From Candidatus Cloacimonadota bacterium (GTDB lineage: Bacteria; Cloacimonadota; Cloacimonadia; JGIOTU-2; B8-G9), in NCBI GenBank assembly GCA_003647765.1, contig QMNM01000089.1:1-6464 (forward strand): a DNA stretch of 6,464 bases, in the 5' to 3' direction. The translations under genes and the position numbers were made by a program. Below, in pieces: positions 1-6,464 of the stretch (its first letter is position 1; each line of letters starts with the position of its first letter). The notes beneath the pieces were generated by a model. That model was not told where the DNA came from. It saw only the letters and a program-made list of their open reading frames with translations, and did not search any database.

Positions 1-90
1 AAAAGAATGTTGATACTGTCAAATAGGAATATTTTGTTAGAAATTTTTTCGTGTTTCTTCGTGTTCTTCGTGGCTAACAAGAGTTCAAGA
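1..90 (+). repeat. Long direct repeat, copy A
   Basis: Bases 1-90 match 162-251 with one substitution (T at 56, C at 217), a 161-bp offset. Inside the unit is a short tandem of TTCGTGTTC-type words (48-73). The heptamer TTGTTAG (34-40) is the inverse complement of CTAACAA (74-80), so that tandem lies within an inverted pair. The right end runs into the octamer array. No open frame of note covers it. The window starts at the first base of the matching unit, so the repeat may extend further left; a contig break at the repeat is one possible reason. Confidence 0.9.
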
Positions 91-161
91 AAACAAGAGT
101 TCAAGAAAACAAGAGTTCAAGATTACAAGAGTTCAAGATGACAAGAGTTCAAGATGACAAG
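78..161 (+). repeat. Octamer (CAAGANNN) tandem array
   Basis: Ten consecutive 8-bp units fit CAAGANNN, plus a final CAAG. They alternate CAAGAGTT with CAAGAAAA, CAAGATTA or CAAGATGA, giving an apparent 16-bp period (78-93, 94-109, 110-125, 126-141, 142-157). The array fills the space between the two copies of the 90-bp repeat and has no spacers. The same family occurs in the opposite orientation at 6333-6404. It looks like a dispersed short tandem repeat; its function is unknown. Confidence 0.92.
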
Positions 162-251
162 AAAAGAATGTTGATACTGTCAAATAGGAATATTTTGTTA
201 GAAATTTTTTCGTGTTCCTTCGTGTTCTTCGTGGCTAACAAGAGTTCAAGA
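162..251 (+). repeat. Long direct repeat, copy B
   Basis: Second copy of the unit at 1-90, with one mismatch over 90 bases. It again carries the TTCGTG-word tandem (209-234) and ends in CAAGAGTT. After base 251 the copies diverge: copy A continues with the AAAA-type octamer, copy B with the ATGA-type octamer. Near identity suggests recent duplication or gene-conversion-like homogenisation. Confidence 0.9.
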
Positions 252-325: not shown

Positions 326-1273
326 ATGAAATCAAAATCACAACGAATAAGATTAGGTATATTTATTACAATATCATCATCTATCTTGATTATAGTAATT
401 GCACTAATAACAGGAAGCAAACTCCTTCAGAAAAGAGACATTTATTATATCGCATACAAGGATGTTTCCATAAGTGGCTTGGAAATTGGGAACTCGGTAA
501 AGTATCATGGAATTAGAGTTGGCAGGATTGATGATATTAAAATTGACCCGAAAGATATTACAAGAGTAATTATTACAATTAGCGTTGAAGAAAATACGCC
601 TATAAAGGAAGATGTAGAAGCAATTGTGTCAATAATAGGTATAACTGGATTGAAATTGATAGAATTAACAGGTGGGTCAAATGAAGCGGAATTACTAAAG
701 CCAGGCTCATTTATCAAGCCAGGAAAGTCAACAATGGCAAATATCACTGGCAAAGCAGAAATCATATCAGAAAAAATTGAAATTATAGCTAATAATCTTT
801 CAGAAATTACAGGCGGCGAAAATAAGGATAAGTTCATTGAGTTGATTAACCGTATCAATATCACTCTAAAACAGGTTAATATTATATTAGCGGAAAATAG
901 AGAACCCATCAAATCTACAATTGATAATGTACAACAATTTTCAGAACAACTAAATATCTTAGGTGCTTCAACAAATCGTATATTAGTATCCCTGGATACC
1001 GTAATGATTAATATTAGTGAAATATCAAAGGATTTAAATCAAGCAGATATAGCAGATTTATTAAGTAATATCAATCAAACAGTACGAGAAATAGATAGGA
1101 CATTTACACATATTGATATGACTGTCCTTAAAGGCAGAAAAGATCTTATTCGTTCACTTGAACTAATGAAATATTCATTACAGAATCTCAATGAGTTTAG
1201 TAGGATGCTTACAGAAAATCCATCTATTATACTTAGAGGAACTGGTGACCAAAGAGCAAAAGAAAGGGAGTAA
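326..1273 (+). CDS. MCE-family (MlaD/PqiB-like) lipid-transport protein
   Basis: The 315-residue protein has one N-terminal membrane anchor (about residues 10-32) after a basic start. A single MCE domain follows (about 38-118), with the typical run VSISGLEIGNSVKYHGIRVG and the later ITGLKLIELTGG. A long helical, probably coiled-coil region (about 145-295) comes next. The C-terminal NPSIILRG resembles the short motif often found at the end of such proteins. Known family role: MCE proteins form periplasmic rings or tubes that carry phospholipids or other hydrophobic substrates between the membranes for an ABC transporter. The ATPase and permease are not in the window. It is first in a three-gene operon with a lipoprotein and an outer-membrane barrel. 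The ATG at 326 is chosen because it puts basic residues before the anchor; no strong Shine-Dalgarno precedes it. Substrate unknown; family call firm, exact subtype not. Confidence 0.92.
   Translation: MKSKSQRIRLGIFITISSSILIIVIALITGSKLLQKRDIYYIAYKDVSISGLEIGNSVKYHGIRVGRIDDIKIDPKDITRVIITISVEENTPIKEDVEAIVSIIGITGLKLIELTGGSNEAELLKPGSFIKPGKSTMANITGKAEIISEKIEIIANNLSEITGGENKDKFIELINRINITLKQVNIILAENREPIKSTIDNVQQFSEQLNILGASTNRILVSLDTVMINISEISKDLNQADIADLLSNINQTVREIDRTFTHIDMTVLKGRKDLIRSLELMKYSLQNLNEFSRMLTENPSIILRGTGDQRAKERE
1266..1270 (+). promoter_or_regulatory. Ribosome binding site of the lipoprotein gene
   Basis: GGGAG, at the very end of the MCE gene, lies 12 nt before the ATG at 1283 and 9 nt before an in-frame TTG at 1280. 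The spacing slightly favours TTG, the codon favours ATG. The choice changes only one residue. Confidence 0.5.
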
Positions 1274-1282
1274 AAAATTTTG

Positions 1283-1909
1283 ATGAAAAGATTTTTCACG
1301 CTTCACGCCTTACGCATTACGCCCTACGCATTATTGTTTTTATTTCTGATAAGTTGCGGCAAAACTTATTATAGTAATTATTACATATTAGATTATACTC
1401 CATCTATACCGGATAGTATAAAAATTTATCCACAACTGCCATATTATGTTGAAGTTAGTGATTTTGATATTTCTTTAACTTATGACCGTTCTGCTATTGT
1501 TATTCGGAATTCTTTACATCAGTTGAGATATAGTAGATATGATTTATGGGCATTACGGCCACAAGATGCTATACAGGATCTTTTATTAAAACACCTTAAA
1601 GAAGCGAACCTTTTTGCTGATGTAAAAAAAGAATTTTTGGATGTGCGTCCTGACTTTACTATTTTAGGACATATTTGTAATATTGAATTATATCATAGTG
1701 AAGGTATAAACAGAGCTGATATAGAGATGGAATTATCATTACAGGATAATCAAAATGAAAATATTGTAGTTTCATATCATTTTGTTCGCTACGAGAGATT
1801 GGATACACAAAATATGGCTTTTTTTGCTAAGAAGATTAGCGATATTCTTAAAGAGGAAAATAATAAATTTATCTTGAAAATAATCAAATACTTTGAGGAG
1901 CAGAGATAA
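1283..1909 (+). CDS. PqiC-like ABC transport auxiliary lipoprotein
   Basis: The 208-residue product has a type II signal peptide: basic start, hydrophobic stretch (about 16-24) and lipobox L-I-S-C with lipidated Cys25. The mature part opens with YYILDY (33-38), as in the ABC-transport auxiliary/PqiC (YmbA, DUF330) family, where a YYxLD-like strand is usual. It also has the family-like run RSAIVIRNSLHQLRYSRYDLWA (69-90 region), then a C-terminal alpha/beta region. Known PqiC is an outer-membrane lipoprotein that works with the MCE protein PqiB. Coming 9 nt after an MCE gene, this one probably does the same. An in-frame TTG at 1280 would add one residue. Oddly, residues 5-16 of the signal peptide are encoded by a five-unit heptamer repeat. 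Family call rests on motif and context; sequence divergence is high. Confidence 0.8.
   Translation: MKRFFTLHALRITPYALLFLFLISCGKTYYSNYYILDYTPSIPDSIKIYPQLPYYVEVSDFDISLTYDRSAIVIRNSLHQLRYSRYDLWALRPQDAIQDLLLKHLKEANLFADVKKEFLDVRPDFTILGHICNIELYHSEGINRADIEMELSLQDNQNENIVVSYHFVRYERLDTQNMAFFAKKISDILKEENNKFILKIIKYFEEQR
1295..1329 (+). repeat. Heptamer tandem repeat (NNYACGC x5) inside a signal-peptide coding region
   Basis: Five uninterrupted 7-bp units all fit NNYACGC (for example TTCACGC, ATTACGC, CCTACGC). They encode residues 5-16 of the lipoprotein, FTLHALRITPYA. The same family in reverse complement appears at 4287-4314 and 6244-6278. Confidence 0.9.
1895..1900 (+). promoter_or_regulatory. Ribosome binding site of the barrel-protein gene
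   Basis: GAGGAG lies 8 nt before the ATG at 1909 and inside the end of the lipoprotein gene. It is a near-ideal Shine-Dalgarno and fixes the start that overlaps the preceding TAA by one base. Confidence 0.8.
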
Positions 1910-3471
1910 TGATAAACAAACAACTAACAACTAACAACTACCATTTTTTTATTTTTTTATTTATATGGCTGTTAAATGTAGTTTTTGCAGATGCTGAAGC
2001 ATTGAATTATGATACCTGGCTTGCTCCATCACCTAATGAGCAATTTAATATTGAAGCTAAAGATGATTATAAAGGATTTGGAAGAATCTTTGTCCCTGTT
2101 ATGACAAATAAAGAATGGGAGCCAACTATTGATATTTATAAGGATAACAAATTAACTCATCTTGCAGAGAATATGGGCGAAAGTATATTCTTGGAAGCTG
2201 GCAATTATAAAATTGTATTTGGTAGTGGAATAACTGAGGAACAGAAAATTGTAAAGTATATAGAAGTCAAGCAGGAATGCACAGAAATTATACAAGTAGA
2301 TTGGTGTGGTTTAATTATCAGAATTATTGATGAATCAAGAAATTTTTTGAAAAAGAGCTACGAGCTATTTGATACTAAAACAGAAGATAGCTATGGCATT
2401 AAAATTAGTAAAGATGAGGATGAAATTGGCGAACATCCTGATACATGGATTTTGCCACCTGGACTGTACAAAATTACTACAGCAGGTGCTCCGTATAATA
2501 CTTTTACAAATTTTACTACTGTTAGACTTTTGCCTAATACATTAACACAATACACAATTGTTATAGATGGCTCATCTGGTGATTTGATTGGTGCTGGAAT
2601 TTTAAAAGAAATGGAAATGAAATTAGTGGAAAAAACACATTGGTCTACATATTCAGCATTACACAGTAGTGTCAATATAACAAGTGAGAATAAATCATCA
2701 AAAGAGAAATTTGATACAGATATTAATCTCTCTACTAAATTTGAAAATAGATTTCGCTATGAAACCAAAAAGCAATTCTTTTTATCAGAGCCATCTATTG
2801 AATTGGTATTAAGTAAAGAGGAACAAGCTAAATTACATATTAGCACAGATAAATTATTACTAAACAATATTTATATTTATTATTTTGTCCCTTTGATTGG
2901 TTTATATGGTCGCTTTGATGTAGAGACAAAACTATTTCCTGGAAAAATATATTATGATTCTAAACAGGATTCTATAATAAAAATCAGTAATGATGATACT
3001 AGGGAAGTGATTTACAATAAAGATGAAGTTAGTGTATCTCCAACTTTTTTCCCACTAATGTTGAAAGAAGGTTTAGGATTAAACTTCACTCCTATAAGGA
3101 CGAATAAGCTCAATTTCAGTATCAGAGCAGGATTAGGGCTTTGGCAGTATATAAGAAAAGATGTATTTGAAAGGAGTTCTGAATCAGATGTAATTTTTAA
3201 GGAAATAAATTCATCTTATATAAAGGGATTAGAGGTATCATCATCAGCTAATTTCCAACCTATACATAAATTATTATGGACTTTGAGAGTTGATATGCTT
3301 TTTCCATATACAGGAGATAAAGAACCTAATTATGAACTGAAAAATGTAATTAATTATCGTTTATTAAAATTTCTATCATTGGAATATAGATTTATCTATA
3401 AAAAAGAAGCCACTCGTGATTATGCTTGGATAGAAAATAATATCTGGTTAAGATTATCATACACTTTTTAA
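1909..3471 (+). CDS. Predicted outer-membrane beta-barrel protein with two N-terminal beta domains, MCE operon
   Basis: I do not recognise a named family for this 520-residue protein. It has a Sec signal peptide (hydrophobic about 12-26, likely cut after Ala27 or Ala29). Two beta-rich domains follow (about 59-130 and 131-220) that look like one duplicated unit. LEAGNYKIVFGSG then IEVKQECTEIIQVD in the first parallels LPPGLYKITTAGAP then VRLLPNTLTQYTIVID in the second; such turns resemble PEGA or carboxypeptidase-regulatory-like folds. From about 250 to the end, alternating polar and aromatic strands (for example INLSTKFENRFRYET, LNFSIRAGLGLWQY, LEYRFIYKKE) and the terminal WLRLSYTF are typical of outer-membrane barrels, ending in Phe. 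C124 and C133 could form a disulfide. It overlaps the lipoprotein stop by one base (TAATG), so it is translationally linked to the MCE genes; a role in envelope lipid transfer is inferred from context only. Confidence 0.75.
   Translation: MINKQLTTNNYHFFIFLFIWLLNVVFADAEALNYDTWLAPSPNEQFNIEAKDDYKGFGRIFVPVMTNKEWEPTIDIYKDNKLTHLAENMGESIFLEAGNYKIVFGSGITEEQKIVKYIEVKQECTEIIQVDWCGLIIRIIDESRNFLKKSYELFDTKTEDSYGIKISKDEDEIGEHPDTWILPPGLYKITTAGAPYNTFTNFTTVRLLPNTLTQYTIVIDGSSGDLIGAGILKEMEMKLVEKTHWSTYSALHSSVNITSENKSSKEKFDTDINLSTKFENRFRYETKKQFFLSEPSIELVLSKEEQAKLHISTDKLLLNNIYIYYFVPLIGLYGRFDVETKLFPGKIYYDSKQDSIIKISNDDTREVIYNKDEVSVSPTFFPLMLKEGLGLNFTPIRTNKLNFSIRAGLGLWQYIRKDVFERSSESDVIFKEINSSYIKGLEVSSSANFQPIHKLLWTLRVDMLFPYTGDKEPNYELKNVINYRLLKFLSLEYRFIYKKEATRDYAWIENNIWLRLSYTF
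1921..1941 (+). repeat. Heptamer tandem repeat (CAACTAA x3) at the start of the barrel gene
   Basis: Three heptamers (CAACTAA, CAACTAA, CAACTAC) give 21 nt, exactly seven codons, encoding QLTTNNY (residues 5-11) just before the hydrophobic core of the signal peptide. The same family occurs in the same orientation at 4430-4457 in front of etfB. Confidence 0.88.
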
Positions 3472-3480
3472 TATTTTCTG

Positions 3481-3499
3481 ATTGCTGAAATTTAGCAAT
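3481..3499. other. Short palindrome after the MCE operon (possible weak hairpin)
   Basis: ATTGCT (3481-3486) and AGCAAT (3494-3499) are perfect inverse complements around a 7-nt loop, starting 9 nt after the barrel gene's stop. It could protect the mRNA 3' end or be a weak terminator, but the stem is short and no T-run follows. Confidence 0.3.
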
Positions 3500-3505
3500 A
3501 ATTAT

Positions 3506-3549
3506 CCAGAAACTCTACTCTGGTTCTTTGAACTCGACTCGGGTTTCAT
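3506..3549. repeat. Two-unit direct repeat with nested inverted pairs in the spacer before the pseudouridine synthase gene
   Basis: AACTCTACTCTGGTTCTTT (3511-3529) and AACTCGACTCGGGTTTCAT (3531-3549) are related units 20 bp apart, sharing AACTC-ACTC-GG. Nested inverse complements are CCAGA (3506-3510) with TCTGG (3519-3523), GTTC (3523-3526) with GAAC (3530-3533), and GAAAC (3509-3513) with GTTTC (3543-3547). It resembles a small dispersed intergenic element. The stretch stays open in the frame of the downstream gene. Confidence 0.5.
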
Positions 3550-3568
3550 ATTTGGTATAGCAAACAAT

Positions 3569-4327
3569 ATGCGTATAAATAAATTTTTAGCAAAATGTAG
3601 CCTGGGCTCAAGAAGAGCGGTAGAGAAACTTATCCTTAAAGGAGAAATAAGTGTAAATGGCAAAATAATCAAAAATTTGGCAACACAGATTGACACTGAA
3701 AAAGATAAGGTATTTTACAATAATAAACTATTAAAAATCCATCAAGAAAATGTCTACATAATAGTAAATAAACCAGCAAAATATTTAGTAACTACAAAAG
3801 ATCCTTACAATCGGAAAACGATTTTTGACTTACTGCCTAATTTTTCCAATGGCATAAATCAGCGATTATTTCCTGTTGGCAGACTTGATTATAAGTCCGA
3901 AGGATTGCTACTATTAACAAATGATGGTGAATTTGCTAATCAGATTATACATCCTAAATATAAGTTAGAAAAGGTCTATAAAGTGAAAGTAAAAGGTAAA
4001 ATTGATAACCGTTCACTCTGGCTTTTACGAAAAGGTATTGATTTAGATGGCAAAAAAACTTTACCAGCAAAAGTATTCATTAATAGTTATAATCCAAAAA
4101 ATGATATTACAAGTATGAAAATAACTATCTATGAAGGACGGAATAGACAAATACGAAGAATGGTAAAATCAATTGGCTTTAATGTGCTGGCTCTTAAAAG
4201 AGTGCAAATAGGAGGAGTAAATTTAGGAAATTTGCCAGTAGGAGCATGGAGGTTTATGAAACATAAAGAGATAAGAAGATTGATGAGCGAAAAGCATAGT
4301 GCGAAGTGCGATTATAAATCAAGATAA
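3569..4327 (+). CDS. RsuA/RluB-family rRNA pseudouridine synthase
   Basis: The 252-residue enzyme should convert a uridine in ribosomal RNA to pseudouridine. An S4 RNA-binding domain fills about residues 1-50 (MRINKFLAKCSLGSRRAVEKL). The catalytic domain begins with YIIVNKPAKYLV, and catalytic Asp107 lies in GRLDYKSEGLLLLTNDG, the RsuA/RluB/E/F form of the motif. EGRNRQIRRM (189-198) is the conserved C-terminal strand motif and LPVGAWR follows. With an S4 domain and this length it fits RluB (large-subunit target) slightly better than RsuA, but the target base cannot be read from sequence. The ATG at 3569 is chosen because it begins the S4 domain. An in-frame TTG at 3482 would add 29 residues translated from a repeat-rich spacer; neither start has a clear Shine-Dalgarno. 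The last residues (about 240-249) are encoded by a heptamer repeat. Confidence 0.93.
   Translation: MRINKFLAKCSLGSRRAVEKLILKGEISVNGKIIKNLATQIDTEKDKVFYNNKLLKIHQENVYIIVNKPAKYLVTTKDPYNRKTIFDLLPNFSNGINQRLFPVGRLDYKSEGLLLLTNDGEFANQIIHPKYKLEKVYKVKVKGKIDNRSLWLLRKGIDLDGKKTLPAKVFINSYNPKNDITSMKITIYEGRNRQIRRMVKSIGFNVLALKRVQIGGVNLGNLPVGAWRFMKHKEIRRLMSEKHSAKCDYKSR
4287..4314 (-). repeat. Heptamer repeat (NNYACGC family, reverse orientation) at the 3' end of the pseudouridine synthase gene
   Basis: Four 7-bp units, GCGAAAA, GCATAGT, GCGAAGT and GCGATTA, are degenerate inverse complements of the family seen at 1295-1329. They encode about residues 240-249 of the enzyme, after its last conserved motif, so the tail EKHSAKCDY is repeat-derived. 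The stop follows at 4325. Confidence 0.7.
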
Positions 4328-4429
4328 ATTTATTCCACTTCATAATTATACTTTGTCAAGTTACAAAAGTGAGTTAAGGATTAAAATTAAGTAACTTTTA
4401 CATTATATATTTATTGATCCTAACATCAT

Positions 4430-4457
4430 CAACCAACAACTATCAACTAACAACTAC
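4430..4457 (+). repeat. Heptamer tandem repeat (CAACTAA family x4) upstream of etfB
   Basis: Four units, CAACCAA, CAACTAT, CAACTAA and CAACTAC, lie in the 194-nt spacer between the pseudouridine synthase and etfB, ending 64 nt before the etfB start. Both this array and the one at 1921 end in CAACTAC followed by CA. The rest of the spacer (4328-4429, 4458-4507) is A+T-rich with no convincing promoter or terminator. Confidence 0.87.
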
Positions 4458-4507
4458 CAATTGTAATGGTGTTTTATCCAATGAGATATGTATAAATGAG
4501 TAAAAAA

Positions 4508-4517
4508 GAGAGGAAGG
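4508..4517 (+). promoter_or_regulatory. Ribosome binding site of etfB
   Basis: The purine run GAGAGGAAGG ends 4 nt before the ATG at 4522, with its AGGA core 7 nt away. It is one of the best Shine-Dalgarno sites in the window and supports this start. Confidence 0.7.
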
Positions 4518-4521
4518 TTTT

Positions 4522-5283
4522 ATGAATAGTATAGTTTGTATAAAAAGAGTTCCTGATACTACATCTGCAACACTTAAAATTGATGCGGAAAATCGCAAAT
4601 TGGATGATGGAAATCTTGTGTTCAGTATCAATGAAGCTGATAATTACGCATTAGAAGAGGCACTTCTATTGCAAGAGGAATTTGGCGGTGAAATTACACT
4701 GATTTCTGTTGGACCAAAAGAATGTGATGATATTATTCGTATGGGATTAGCAAAAGGAGCAACAAGAGGCATAAGAATTACACCTGATAATCTATATAAA
4801 CTTGACCCGTATGCTATTGCGAACTTAATTGCTGAGCAAATCAAGGAATTGGAGTATGACCTGATTTTTACTGGCTGTATGGCAAATGATGATAATTTTG
4901 GACAACTTGGTGTAACACTTGCAGGGCTTCTGAATATTCCGCATATCTCATTAGCTGTGAAAATACAAGCGAATGAAGATTATGCTATAATTGATCGTGA
5001 ATTAGAAGGTGGATTGATGGAACAATTTAATATTAAATTTCCAGCAGTAATTACAATCCAAACTGGAATAAACGAGCCAAGGTATGCGTCTATTTTTGGA
5101 ATTAAAAGAGCATCTAAAAAGGAAATAAGATTTGTAGAGAATATTTCTGCACAGGGAATAAAAGTGCATACTGAAAAGATGTATTTACCGCCACCTGGGG
5201 ACACTGCGGAAATATTTACAGGAAATCCAGAAGAGACAGCAGAAAAAGTATATGAAATTCTAAAAACAAAGGGGTTAATATGA
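4522..5283 (+). CDS. etfB: Electron transfer flavoprotein beta subunit
   Basis: The 253-residue subunit pairs with EtfA to carry electrons between flavin dehydrogenases and a quinone reductase or ferredoxin partner. Hallmarks in order are KRVPDT (8-13), INEADNYALEEAL (36-48, family usually NPFDEYALEEAL), AKGATRGIRI (77-86), and the nucleotide-binding stretch GCMANDDNFGQLG (118-130, compare GKQAIDGDTGQVG). Then come DRELEGGLMEQ...FPAVIT (158-178), close to the family signature with Phe169 at a usually aliphatic position, and GINEPRYASIFGIKRASKK (182-200). Length is normal. It overlaps etfA by 4 nt (ATGA), so the two are co-translated. No acyl-CoA dehydrogenase, ETF:quinone oxidoreductase or ferredoxin gene lies in the window, so its redox partner and whether it bifurcates electrons are unknown. 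Confidence 0.95.
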   Translation: MNSIVCIKRVPDTTSATLKIDAENRKLDDGNLVFSINEADNYALEEALLLQEEFGGEITLISVGPKECDDIIRMGLAKGATRGIRITPDNLYKLDPYAIANLIAEQIKELEYDLIFTGCMANDDNFGQLGVTLAGLLNIPHISLAVKIQANEDYAIIDRELEGGLMEQFNIKFPAVITIQTGINEPRYASIFGIKRASKKEIRFVENISAQGIKVHTEKMYLPPPGDTAEIFTGNPEETAEKVYEILKTKGLI

Positions 5284-6263
5284 GAAAAGATATTTTTGTA
5301 TTGGTTGAACATAGAAAGGGTGAAATAAGAGATATTACTTTTGAACTATTAACAAAAGCCAGAAATATGGTGCAAACTGGTGGATTTGTTTATGCAATTG
5401 TTCTTGCCAAAAATGGAGATAATTTTATAGAGAAGTTAAAATCAGAAGCACATAGAATCTTATGTATTGAAAATGAGAAACTTGAGCATTTTCATTCAGA
5501 TTATTATCAGCAAGTGCTTGGTTCTATAATCACTGATAGAAAGCCATTGCTTACATTATTTGGACAGACATCGTACACTATGGATATTGCACCATCTTTG
5601 GCAGTGCAACTTGATTTACCTATTGTTATGGGCTGTATAGAATTTGAAATTGGTGATGATAAAATCTTTACAATAAATCAAGTATATGGTGGAAAGATAC
5701 ATACTCGGTTTTCATTTCCATCTAAAAATGGTGGAATAATTTCCATTCAGCCTGGCACTTTCACTGCTGAACAAGGTGATTTATCTGCTGAAATTGAGAG
5801 AATCACTTTTTCATTTGAGGAAATTACTAATAAAAAATTTATCCAATTTGTAGAAGCAGTTGCAGGTGAGATTGATATTACACAAGCAGAGAAAATTGTA
5901 GCAATTGGTAGAGGTATCAAAGAGAAGGATAATTTACAGATAATAGAGGATTTTGCTGAATCCATAGGTGCTGTTGTTGCTTGTTCAAGGCCCATTGTAG
6001 ATGCTGGATGGCTACCAAAAGAAAGGCAGGTCGGTTCATCAGGAAAAACTGTGAAACCAAAACTTTATATTGCTCTCGGCATAAGTGGTGATTTCCAACA
6101 TTTAATCGGAATGAGAAATGCTGACACAATCATTGCTGTAAATAAAGACCCTAATGCACCAATATTCGGCATTGCTGACTATGGCATTGTTGATGACTTA
6201 TTAAAAATAGTCCCAGCATTAAAAAAGAAAATTATGGAGAAATGCGAAGCGCGTAGCGCGTAG
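5280..6263 (+). CDS. etfA: Electron transfer flavoprotein alpha subunit
   Basis: The 327-residue subunit binds the mobile FAD of the ETF heterodimer. The N-terminal alpha/beta domain (about 1-190) is divergent; the C-terminal FAD domain is well conserved: GRGIKEKDN (210-218), SRPIVDAGWLP (236-246), QVGSSGKTV (250-258), ALGISGDFQHLIGM (265-278), NKDPNAPIFGIADYG (288-302). Compared with the common QVGQTGK and GISGAIQH, this protein has SS for QT and DF for AI near the flavin. The start overlaps the etfB stop; AAAGGGG (5268-5274) is its ribosome site. It ends in KKKIMEKCEARSA; the last residues and the TAG stop are supplied by a heptamer repeat beginning at 6244, beyond the usual family end. No extra iron-sulfur domain is present. 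Confidence 0.95.
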   Translation: MRKDIFVLVEHRKGEIRDITFELLTKARNMVQTGGFVYAIVLAKNGDNFIEKLKSEAHRILCIENEKLEHFHSDYYQQVLGSIITDRKPLLTLFGQTSYTMDIAPSLAVQLDLPIVMGCIEFEIGDDKIFTINQVYGGKIHTRFSFPSKNGGIISIQPGTFTAEQGDLSAEIERITFSFEEITNKKFIQFVEAVAGEIDITQAEKIVAIGRGIKEKDNLQIIEDFAESIGAVVACSRPIVDAGWLPKERQVGSSGKTVKPKLYIALGISGDFQHLIGMRNADTIIAVNKDPNAPIFGIADYGIVDDLLKIVPALKKKIMEKCEARSA

Positions 6264-6278
6264 TGCGTAGTGCGAAAA
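6244..6278 (-). repeat. Heptamer tandem repeat (NNYACGC family, reverse orientation) overlapping the etfA stop
   Basis: Units GCGAAGC, GCGTAGC, GCGTAGT and GCGTAGT, plus the degenerate GCGAAAA, run without gaps from 6244. GCGTAGT is the inverse complement of ACTACGC, so this is the 1295-1329 family turned round. In the etfA frame it encodes EARSA and then the TAG stop at 6261-6263. Confidence 0.88.
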
Positions 6279-6332
6279 TTTATAAATAGAGAATAAAAAT
6301 TCAGAAACTATATATTCTTCATTGCCCCATTG

Positions 6333-6404
6333 TCTTCTTGTTTTCTTGAACTCTTGTCTTCTTGTTTCCTTGAACTCTTGTCTTCTTGTTTTCTTGATCT
6401 CTTA
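6333..6404 (-). repeat. Octamer (CAAGANNN) array in reverse orientation before the amidohydrolase gene
   Basis: Eight clean 8-bp units fitting NNNTCTTG (one reads TTTCCTTG) fill 6333-6396, with a ninth degenerate unit to 6404. They form a 24-bp higher-order pattern of TCTTCTTG, TTTTCTTG and AACTCTTG. This is the reverse complement of the array at 78-161; bases 6336-6357 match 77-98 perfectly (22 bp). The array ends only 5 nt before the next gene's ATG. The preceding spacer (6279-6332) shows nothing recognisable. Confidence 0.9.
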
Positions 6405-6409
6405 TAAAA

Positions 6410-6464
6410 ATGTATGATTTACTGATAAAAAACGGTATTATTGTAAATTCAGATAGAATATTCA
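6410..6464 (+). CDS. N-terminus of a probable cyclic amidohydrolase (dihydropyrimidinase/dihydroorotase type), cut by window end
   Basis: From the ATG at 6410 the frame is open to the window end and reads MYDLLIKNGIIVNSDRIF. The opening (Y)DLLIKNGxIV is typical of dihydropyrimidinase, hydantoinase, allantoinase and dihydroorotase-like enzymes, which open cyclic amide rings with a binuclear metal site. The metal-binding His motif lies beyond the window, so the exact enzyme cannot be told. The start has no Shine-Dalgarno; the pyrimidine-rich octamer array ends 5 nt upstream. Spacing from etfA is 146 nt, so co-transcription is possible but not shown. Confidence 0.6.
   Translation, partial: MYDLLIKNGIIVNSDRIF

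Follow-up and report, generated by a model that had tools for sequence, protein, structure and literature searches.

Gene-border arrays of 7- and 8-bp repeats in a Cloacimonadota genome: a mirrored orientation that stop codons explain in part

Results

Repeat arrays at the gene borders of the window

The window is a stretch of 6,464 nucleotides from a Candidatus Cloacimonadota bacterium (contig QMNM01000089.1, assembly GCA_003647765.1), and it is one whole contig of a genome that is 88.8% complete (1.97 Mb, 360 contigs). Tandem arrays of heptamers and octamers stand at the borders of most of its genes. One heptamer family, ACGC, lies with its open strand forward at a gene start and reversed at gene ends. 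This mirror placement is real, recurs for ACGC in many unrelated phyla, and is explained in part by stop codons. The genes and arrays of the window are, in order of position:

75-170, minus strand: octamer array, TCTTG plus three bases on the minus strand (CAAGAnnn on the plus strand), upstream of the MlaD gene; Tandem Repeats Finder (TRF) score 141, family scan score 55
326-1273, plus strand: MlaD/MCE-type gene, given as context (PF02470, TIGR00996)
1283-1909, plus strand: ABC_trans_aux lipoprotein gene (PF03886; translation)
1295-1333, plus strand: ACGC heptamer array (TACGC plus two bases), open reading strand, at a gene start (TRF, family scan, lag test)
1909-3471: gene for an unknown protein with a signal-peptide-like start (translation)
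1915-1943, plus strand: CAACTAA heptamer array, translated as KQLTTNNY within the N-terminus of the 1909-3471 protein (translation, TRF, lag test)
3569-4327: RsuA/RluB-type pseudouridine synthase gene
4288-4313, minus strand: degenerate units of the ACGC family, at the 3' end of the preceding gene (sequence reading)
4427-4460, plus strand: CAACTAA/CAACCAA heptamer array in the leader of the EtfB gene (TRF, lag test)
5280-6263: EtfA gene
6240-6276, minus strand: ACGC heptamer array, reversed, across the EtfA stop (TRF, lag test)
6330-6403, plus strand: TCTTGnnn octamer array in the leader of an open reading frame (ORF) starting near 6410 (TRF score 134; lag test)

That several repeat families occupy gene edges had been proposed from the letters alone (hereafter the sequence-only reading), and TRF and a lag test against 300 first-order (dinucleotide) Markov windows confirm it. 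Four lag-7 arrays were found in the window and none in each of the control windows. For lags of 8, 16 and 24 the Markov mean was 0.003-0.010 per window with a maximum of 1; array 75-170, with a lag-16 score of 63.5, was matched at most once in any of the 300. Six of seven array sites were detected, one of them (75-170) outside the range first described. The seventh, 4288-4313, consists of worn reversed ACGC units that fall below the detection threshold of TRF and the lag test, and it is a plausible reversed ACGC array. Array lengths are 26-96 bp, against the roughly 20-85 bp first given.

No array lies inside a conserved domain, as had been claimed. Pfam matches end at residue 279 in EtfA, where the array starts at residue ~321, and at residue 200 in the pseudouridine synthase, where it starts at ~242. 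In the lipoprotein the Pfam match starts at residue 55, and array 1295-1333 encodes part (MKRFFTLHALRITPYALLFLFLISCGK) of the signal peptide, residues ~5-17. Profile searches gave the border genes mixed, unrelated functions.

Other repeats share the window. A shorter octamer stretch (238-275) follows array 75-170, and the junction TTCGTGGCTAA/CAAG occurs twice. The contig start falls inside a repeat, a direct duplication of 1-85 at 164-249 with 163-bp spacing (TTTTTTCGTGTTTCTTCGTGTTCTTCGTGGCTAACAAGAG...); in it a TTCGTG-type repeat is combined with the octamer array, and the genome holds dozens of partial copies. A palindromic element (close to GAAACTCGACTCGGGTTCTTTGAACTCGAGTCGGGTTTC) that is dispersed over many sites of the genome has one copy at 3507-3548, upstream of the gene for the pseudouridine synthase.

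Abundance, units and growth of the arrays

The genome was read as 1.10 Mb in 141 stretches, 67 kb of that masked; about 26 of its short contigs (L070, L072-L083, L085-L092, L094-L097, L099) appear to be all N. Detection across these stretches gave 48 lag-7, 26 lag-8 and 40 lag-14 arrays, against 0 in the Markov control. Between 68 and 100% of array bp are non-coding (78% for lag-7 arrays), compared with 14% for the genome. The arrays are dispersed 7- and 8-bp simple repeats of a known kind, with features of STRR and long simple sequence repeats. Repeats occupy ~84 kb of these stretches, and of the 282 stretch ends 85 fall in them.

The ACGC unit is TACGC followed by a two-base spacer, [ACT][CT], with core bases 92-100% constant over 371 units; the octamer unit is TCTTG followed by three variable bases. 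A 5-base core with a 2- or 3-base spacer was rejected as a general rule for such units (Wilcoxon p 0.07-0.54 over 19+62 heptamer and 9+16 octamer families), the layout being striking in the two main families.

Higher-order repeats of 28 bp, repeated three to four times, occur within arrays and argue for local growth by tandem duplication; they also suggest that copy number may vary between strains. Some arrays run into other repeat families, and the junctions recur (the composite GCGTAAATTCrCCACAGAG, for example, at 8 sites), which indicates that segments are copied as well. As a test for the copying of whole arrays between sites, shared order of spacer variants was counted at word length 4 and gave only a slight excess, 43 against 28.5. 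In two further genes (gene coordinates L064:2833 and L123:3060), other heptamer or octamer arrays encode the whole of an N-terminal stretch (KIRRQKSGDRSQKTEIRRQKSG; QQEHKNTRIQEYKNTRTQKHK).

Distribution across lineages

The exact ACGC pattern has 245-255 matches in this genome and is almost absent from the 123 further genomes of the phylum that were searched, the closest 29 relatives included. A wide scan over the genomes of 84,980 species found at least 114 ACGC loci. About a dozen phyla are represented among the matches listed: Chloroflexota, Planctomycetota, Bacteroidota, Desulfobacterota, Calditrichota and WOR-3/Stahlbacteria, and further Kiritimatiellales/Lentisphaerae, Poribacteria, Bacillota, Proteobacteria and others. 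The same orientation rule is seen there, so the suspicion of the sequence-only reading that the phenomenon is broader than filamentous cyanobacteria was well founded. Whole-genome match counts were 486 in Anaerolineae, 298 in Chloroflexaceae, 190 in Pirellulaceae and 137 in Bacteroidales, counts being less specific in three genomes (G125, G128, G137) where a reversed-pattern control outscores the pattern, probably through a further repeat family. Many foreign ACGC loci, which were picked through this family, adjoin other heptamer or octamer arrays, and the TCTTG octamer is also present in Chloroflexaceae and Anaerolineae.

Codon effects and the end of EtfA

The TACGC strand of the ACGC repeat has no stop codon and no ATG or GTG, and can therefore be read through at gene starts; it is read into the signal peptides of the window lipoprotein and of one gene in L024. 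The GCGTA strand carries TAA or TAG in nearly every unit, the second spacer base being C or T almost throughout, and its place in a gene is therefore restricted to the end. In the stretches read, 13 ACGC arrays overlap a gene 3' end, and every one of them is reversed, since only that strand has stop codons. The overlapped genes end in 11 TAG and 2 TAA; TAG is 23% genome-wide.

EtfA is one such gene. Array 6240-6276 supplies its last residues, CEARSA, and its TAG stop. The protein ends in KIMEKCEARSA, and its orthologs in three order-mates, which lack the array tail, end in KILEAKA, KILEMKA and KILEMKH. In a sister genome (G008) an AAGGGnn heptamer array lies just after the EtfA stop (L298:2480-2531) and a TTTAGnnn octamer array occupies the EtfB leader (L298:2-133). 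Before EtfB a second relative has a weaker version of the array, and a third has no arrays at these borders. As the arrays differ, the same Etf borders have been used by different families in different lineages. Where arrays lie behind the stop, their register relative to it showed no clear enrichment.

Orientation beyond stop codons

Arrays that touch no gene are also oriented. With position and strand randomised within the same spacers, 7.0 gene-free ACGC arrays would be expected to lie reversed within 30 nt after stops, and 17 were found (P=0.0005). The octamer family behaves alike (6 vs 2.1 expected, P=0.0075). Within 30 nt upstream of starts, reversed ACGC arrays are depleted (2 vs 5.8, P=0.04). 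In convergent spacers of this and foreign genomes, both families taken together, the closer of the two flanking genes is the one relative to which the array is reversed (15 of 16 cases). In other phyla, arrays after genes are reversed by 34 to 10, and before genes the balance is 11 to 3 the other way.

Put for any family, the G-richer strand points away from the nearest gene in 68 of the 82 clear cases (68:14, p=1e-9), with 38:2 for ACGC and 23:10 for other families. This polarity is a strong tendency, not a law. Together with the 13 overlapping arrays, these counts differ from the distribution and orientation expected by chance. Background G-C skew does not explain them, because 5' flanks in this genome have G>C in 81% of genes, opposite to the arrays there. 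Purine against pyrimidine, tried in place of G against C, fails for the other families.

Order of inverted pairs

The order of strands in inverted pairs reads alike on both DNA strands, which makes it independent of how genes were called. Across 18 whole genomes, G-first pairs of the form GCGTAnnGCGTA-(0-30)-TACGCnnTACGC occur 250 times and the opposite order 0 times, pairs within one genome not being independent of each other. Of the 250, 239 are matches in one Anaerolineae genome (G124, CSSed162cmB_92) to short ACGC-array hairpins with varied loops, the G-strand first every time. Pairs detected de novo in the fetched loci are G-first by 22:0, with units including AAAGGGA, GGAATGA, AGTATAAG and TAATTGT. 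In our genome the octamer pairs are 3:0 G-first; ACGC forms no inverted pairs there, and its arrays are not palindromic. Perfect hairpins outside arrays have no order preference (43:34 and 24:34). A single inverted pair of the AATTGTT family was found in 395 Bacteroidota genomes.

Discussion

The arrays are dispersed, lineage-expanded period-7 and period-8 repeats that probably arise as neutral or selfish by-products of replication or repair, rather than forming a regulatory system, and that carry a polarity in addition. They fill gene-free space and dispensable gene edges (signal peptides and C-terminal tails) and probably survive where they do not break genes, for which both their placement and the codon filter argue. 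Units grow locally by tandem duplication, with copying of joined segments besides. The additional polarity could come from growth or joining of arrays at DNA ends rather than from selection on RNA, the G-strand then being the 3' end that points away from the retained sequence. A bolder extension, of which we are distinctly doubtful, is that bacterial 7- and 8-mer arrays of unrelated sequence all follow one polarity, with inverted pairs G-first only as in fused telomeres, and that this would reflect a single widespread and undescribed process of 3'-end repeat addition or expansion in break repair.

Selection on transcripts is a serious rival, albeit one that we hold to be rather unlikely. It supposes two kinds of loss: of G-rich arrays that stand before starts and resemble Shine-Dalgarno or start signals, and of C-rich arrays that stand after stops and recruit Rho or otherwise disturb downstream genes. 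The depletion of reversed arrays just upstream of starts fits this, as does the observation that, among mixed families in other phyla, scoring by G>C tells 3' arrays from 5' ones (16:4 vs 5:15). However, the bias persists in convergent regions (15/16), where there is neither a start codon nor a co-directional downstream gene, and what is seen after stops is a positive excess and not mere depletion elsewhere.

Arrays might instead land at random and in random orientation, with those that insert stops into gene bodies being lost and the reading frame acting as the only filter. This was argued before for TAACTGA repeats (PMC4679880). It accounts for the stop-bearing strand over all 13 gene 3' ends and for the 24:1 preference for the open strand in arrays inside ORFs of other phyla. 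Where an array lies just behind a stop, that stop is TAG in 10 of 21 genes compared with 23% genome-wide (p=0.017), and some of these arrays may once have overlapped the stop. As a full account it is weakened, and we judge it unlikely: arrays touching no gene are biased as well, inverted pairs are G-first only (250:0, and 22:0 de novo), and GGGAATC repeats, stop-free in either direction, keep the rule (PMC4692102), from which it follows that stops cannot be the whole cause.

A role through small RNAs, or through coordinated changes of the array-bearing genes, is quite improbable. The TACGC core is nearly invariant while spacers vary, and the two ACGC arrays of the window are complementary, with a modelled RNA pairing of -37.0 kcal/mol (shuffled mean -18.8). 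That energy follows from the complementarity itself; cross-pairing of transcripts, which the sequence-only reading called conceivable, is possible, but as the point of the arrangement it is unsupported. Against such a role, no RNA family match was obtained, the neighbouring genes are unrelated in function, in sister genomes the borders of the orthologous gene pair carry another array family or no array, and the core-plus-spacer pattern is not general across families.

Least credible of all is movement as REP/REPIN-like elements by a Y1 (RAYT-type) transposase, or as retro-elements through a reverse transcriptase: REPINs share the fixed polarity of inverted pairs and the Anaerolineae ACGC pairs form hairpins, but the 88.8% complete genome has no RVT_1 match, its single Y1 transposase has no arrays in the 2.3 kb examined, most array-poor order-mates carry more Y1 copies, and the ACGC arrays here are neither palindromic nor in inverted pairs. 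Neither enzyme is supported as the mover, and the "system" named at first has no recognisable machinery. On another contig (L302:980-1551), a putative MazF/PemK-like toxin gene with a likely antitoxin, identified by eye, lies near a Y1-type transposase.

Several points weigh against our preferred reading of the arrays as repeat by-products with a polarity. No array insertion or extension event was observed and no machinery was identified. Most of the ACGC pairs (239/250) come from the single Anaerolineae genome G124. Under looser detection the pair count becomes 31:4, so that 4 of 35 pairs are C-first, and in our own genome the families other than ACGC and the octamer have 2 arrays pointing out and 4 in. 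The 13 of 13 at gene ends is close to logical necessity and lends no independent support to anything else. About half of the genome was covered, with gene calls from our own script and 67 kb masked. A positive role is also possible, for example in transcript ends, as a back-up translation stop or through a repeat-binding protein as proposed by MacGregor. Taken as a whole, the interpretation given by the sequence-only reading is partly supported.

Heptamer repeats are over-represented in many bacteria. A polarity present in one core across phyla, in mixed repeats and in a published stop-free family would turn what passes for junk at gene edges into a testable statement on the origin of such repeats. 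There are practical consequences too: arrays matter for annotation, as sources of stop codons, C-terminal tails and portions of signal peptides, and they break assemblies.

Among the closest known systems is the GGGAATC repeat of Xanthomonas and Nostoc, whose G-rich strand is coding behind genes and non-coding ahead of them, with 70 and 75 convergent pairs in two Xanthomonas genomes (Rehm 2015, PMC4692102). The arrays described here resemble GGGAATC and GGGGA(C/T)T repeats in their period of 7, degenerate positions, dispersed and mainly intergenic placement near the preceding gene, strand rule and convergent pairs, and in showing no link with mobile elements or with a single gene class; orientation likewise depends on the near gene end. 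They differ in their units, in the presence of octamers and of several families per genome, and in that the rule is seen both in a single family spread over many phyla and in a mixture of unrelated families. The TACGC/GCGTA and TCTTG/CAAGA cores contain no G-run of three and no G-quadruplex motif.

TAACTGA arrays also stand at gene borders, where stops limit one orientation (MacGregor 2015, PMC4679880). They occur patchily across distant phyla (marine Beggiatoaceae, Cyanobacteria, Bacteroidetes) and share the period of 7; the orientation with stops in all frames is confined to gene ends, and the reverse is tolerated at protein ends. Their unit is different, and in their main host they lie mostly just before starts, whereas the arrays here lie mostly after genes. 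Cyanobacterial STRR and long simple sequence repeats (Mrazek 2007, cited through PMC4679880 and PMC4692102) are likewise tandem heptamers over-represented between genes, with several families per genome; here, by contrast, the order and class of the host mostly lack the ACGC family, and octamers are co-dominant.

The geometry of inverted pairs is also that of fused telomere arrays (head-to-head, G-strand then C-strand), as an analogy only; neither a linear replicon nor a telomerase or reverse transcriptase turned up in this genome. REP, REPIN and BIME elements are intergenic and form inverted pairs with fixed polarity, as arrays of this kind do; the units here are not palindromic, their 7-mer copy number varies, and no dedicated transposase was identified. 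Heptamer border arrays with a stop-limited orientation and a strand preference are not new in principle.

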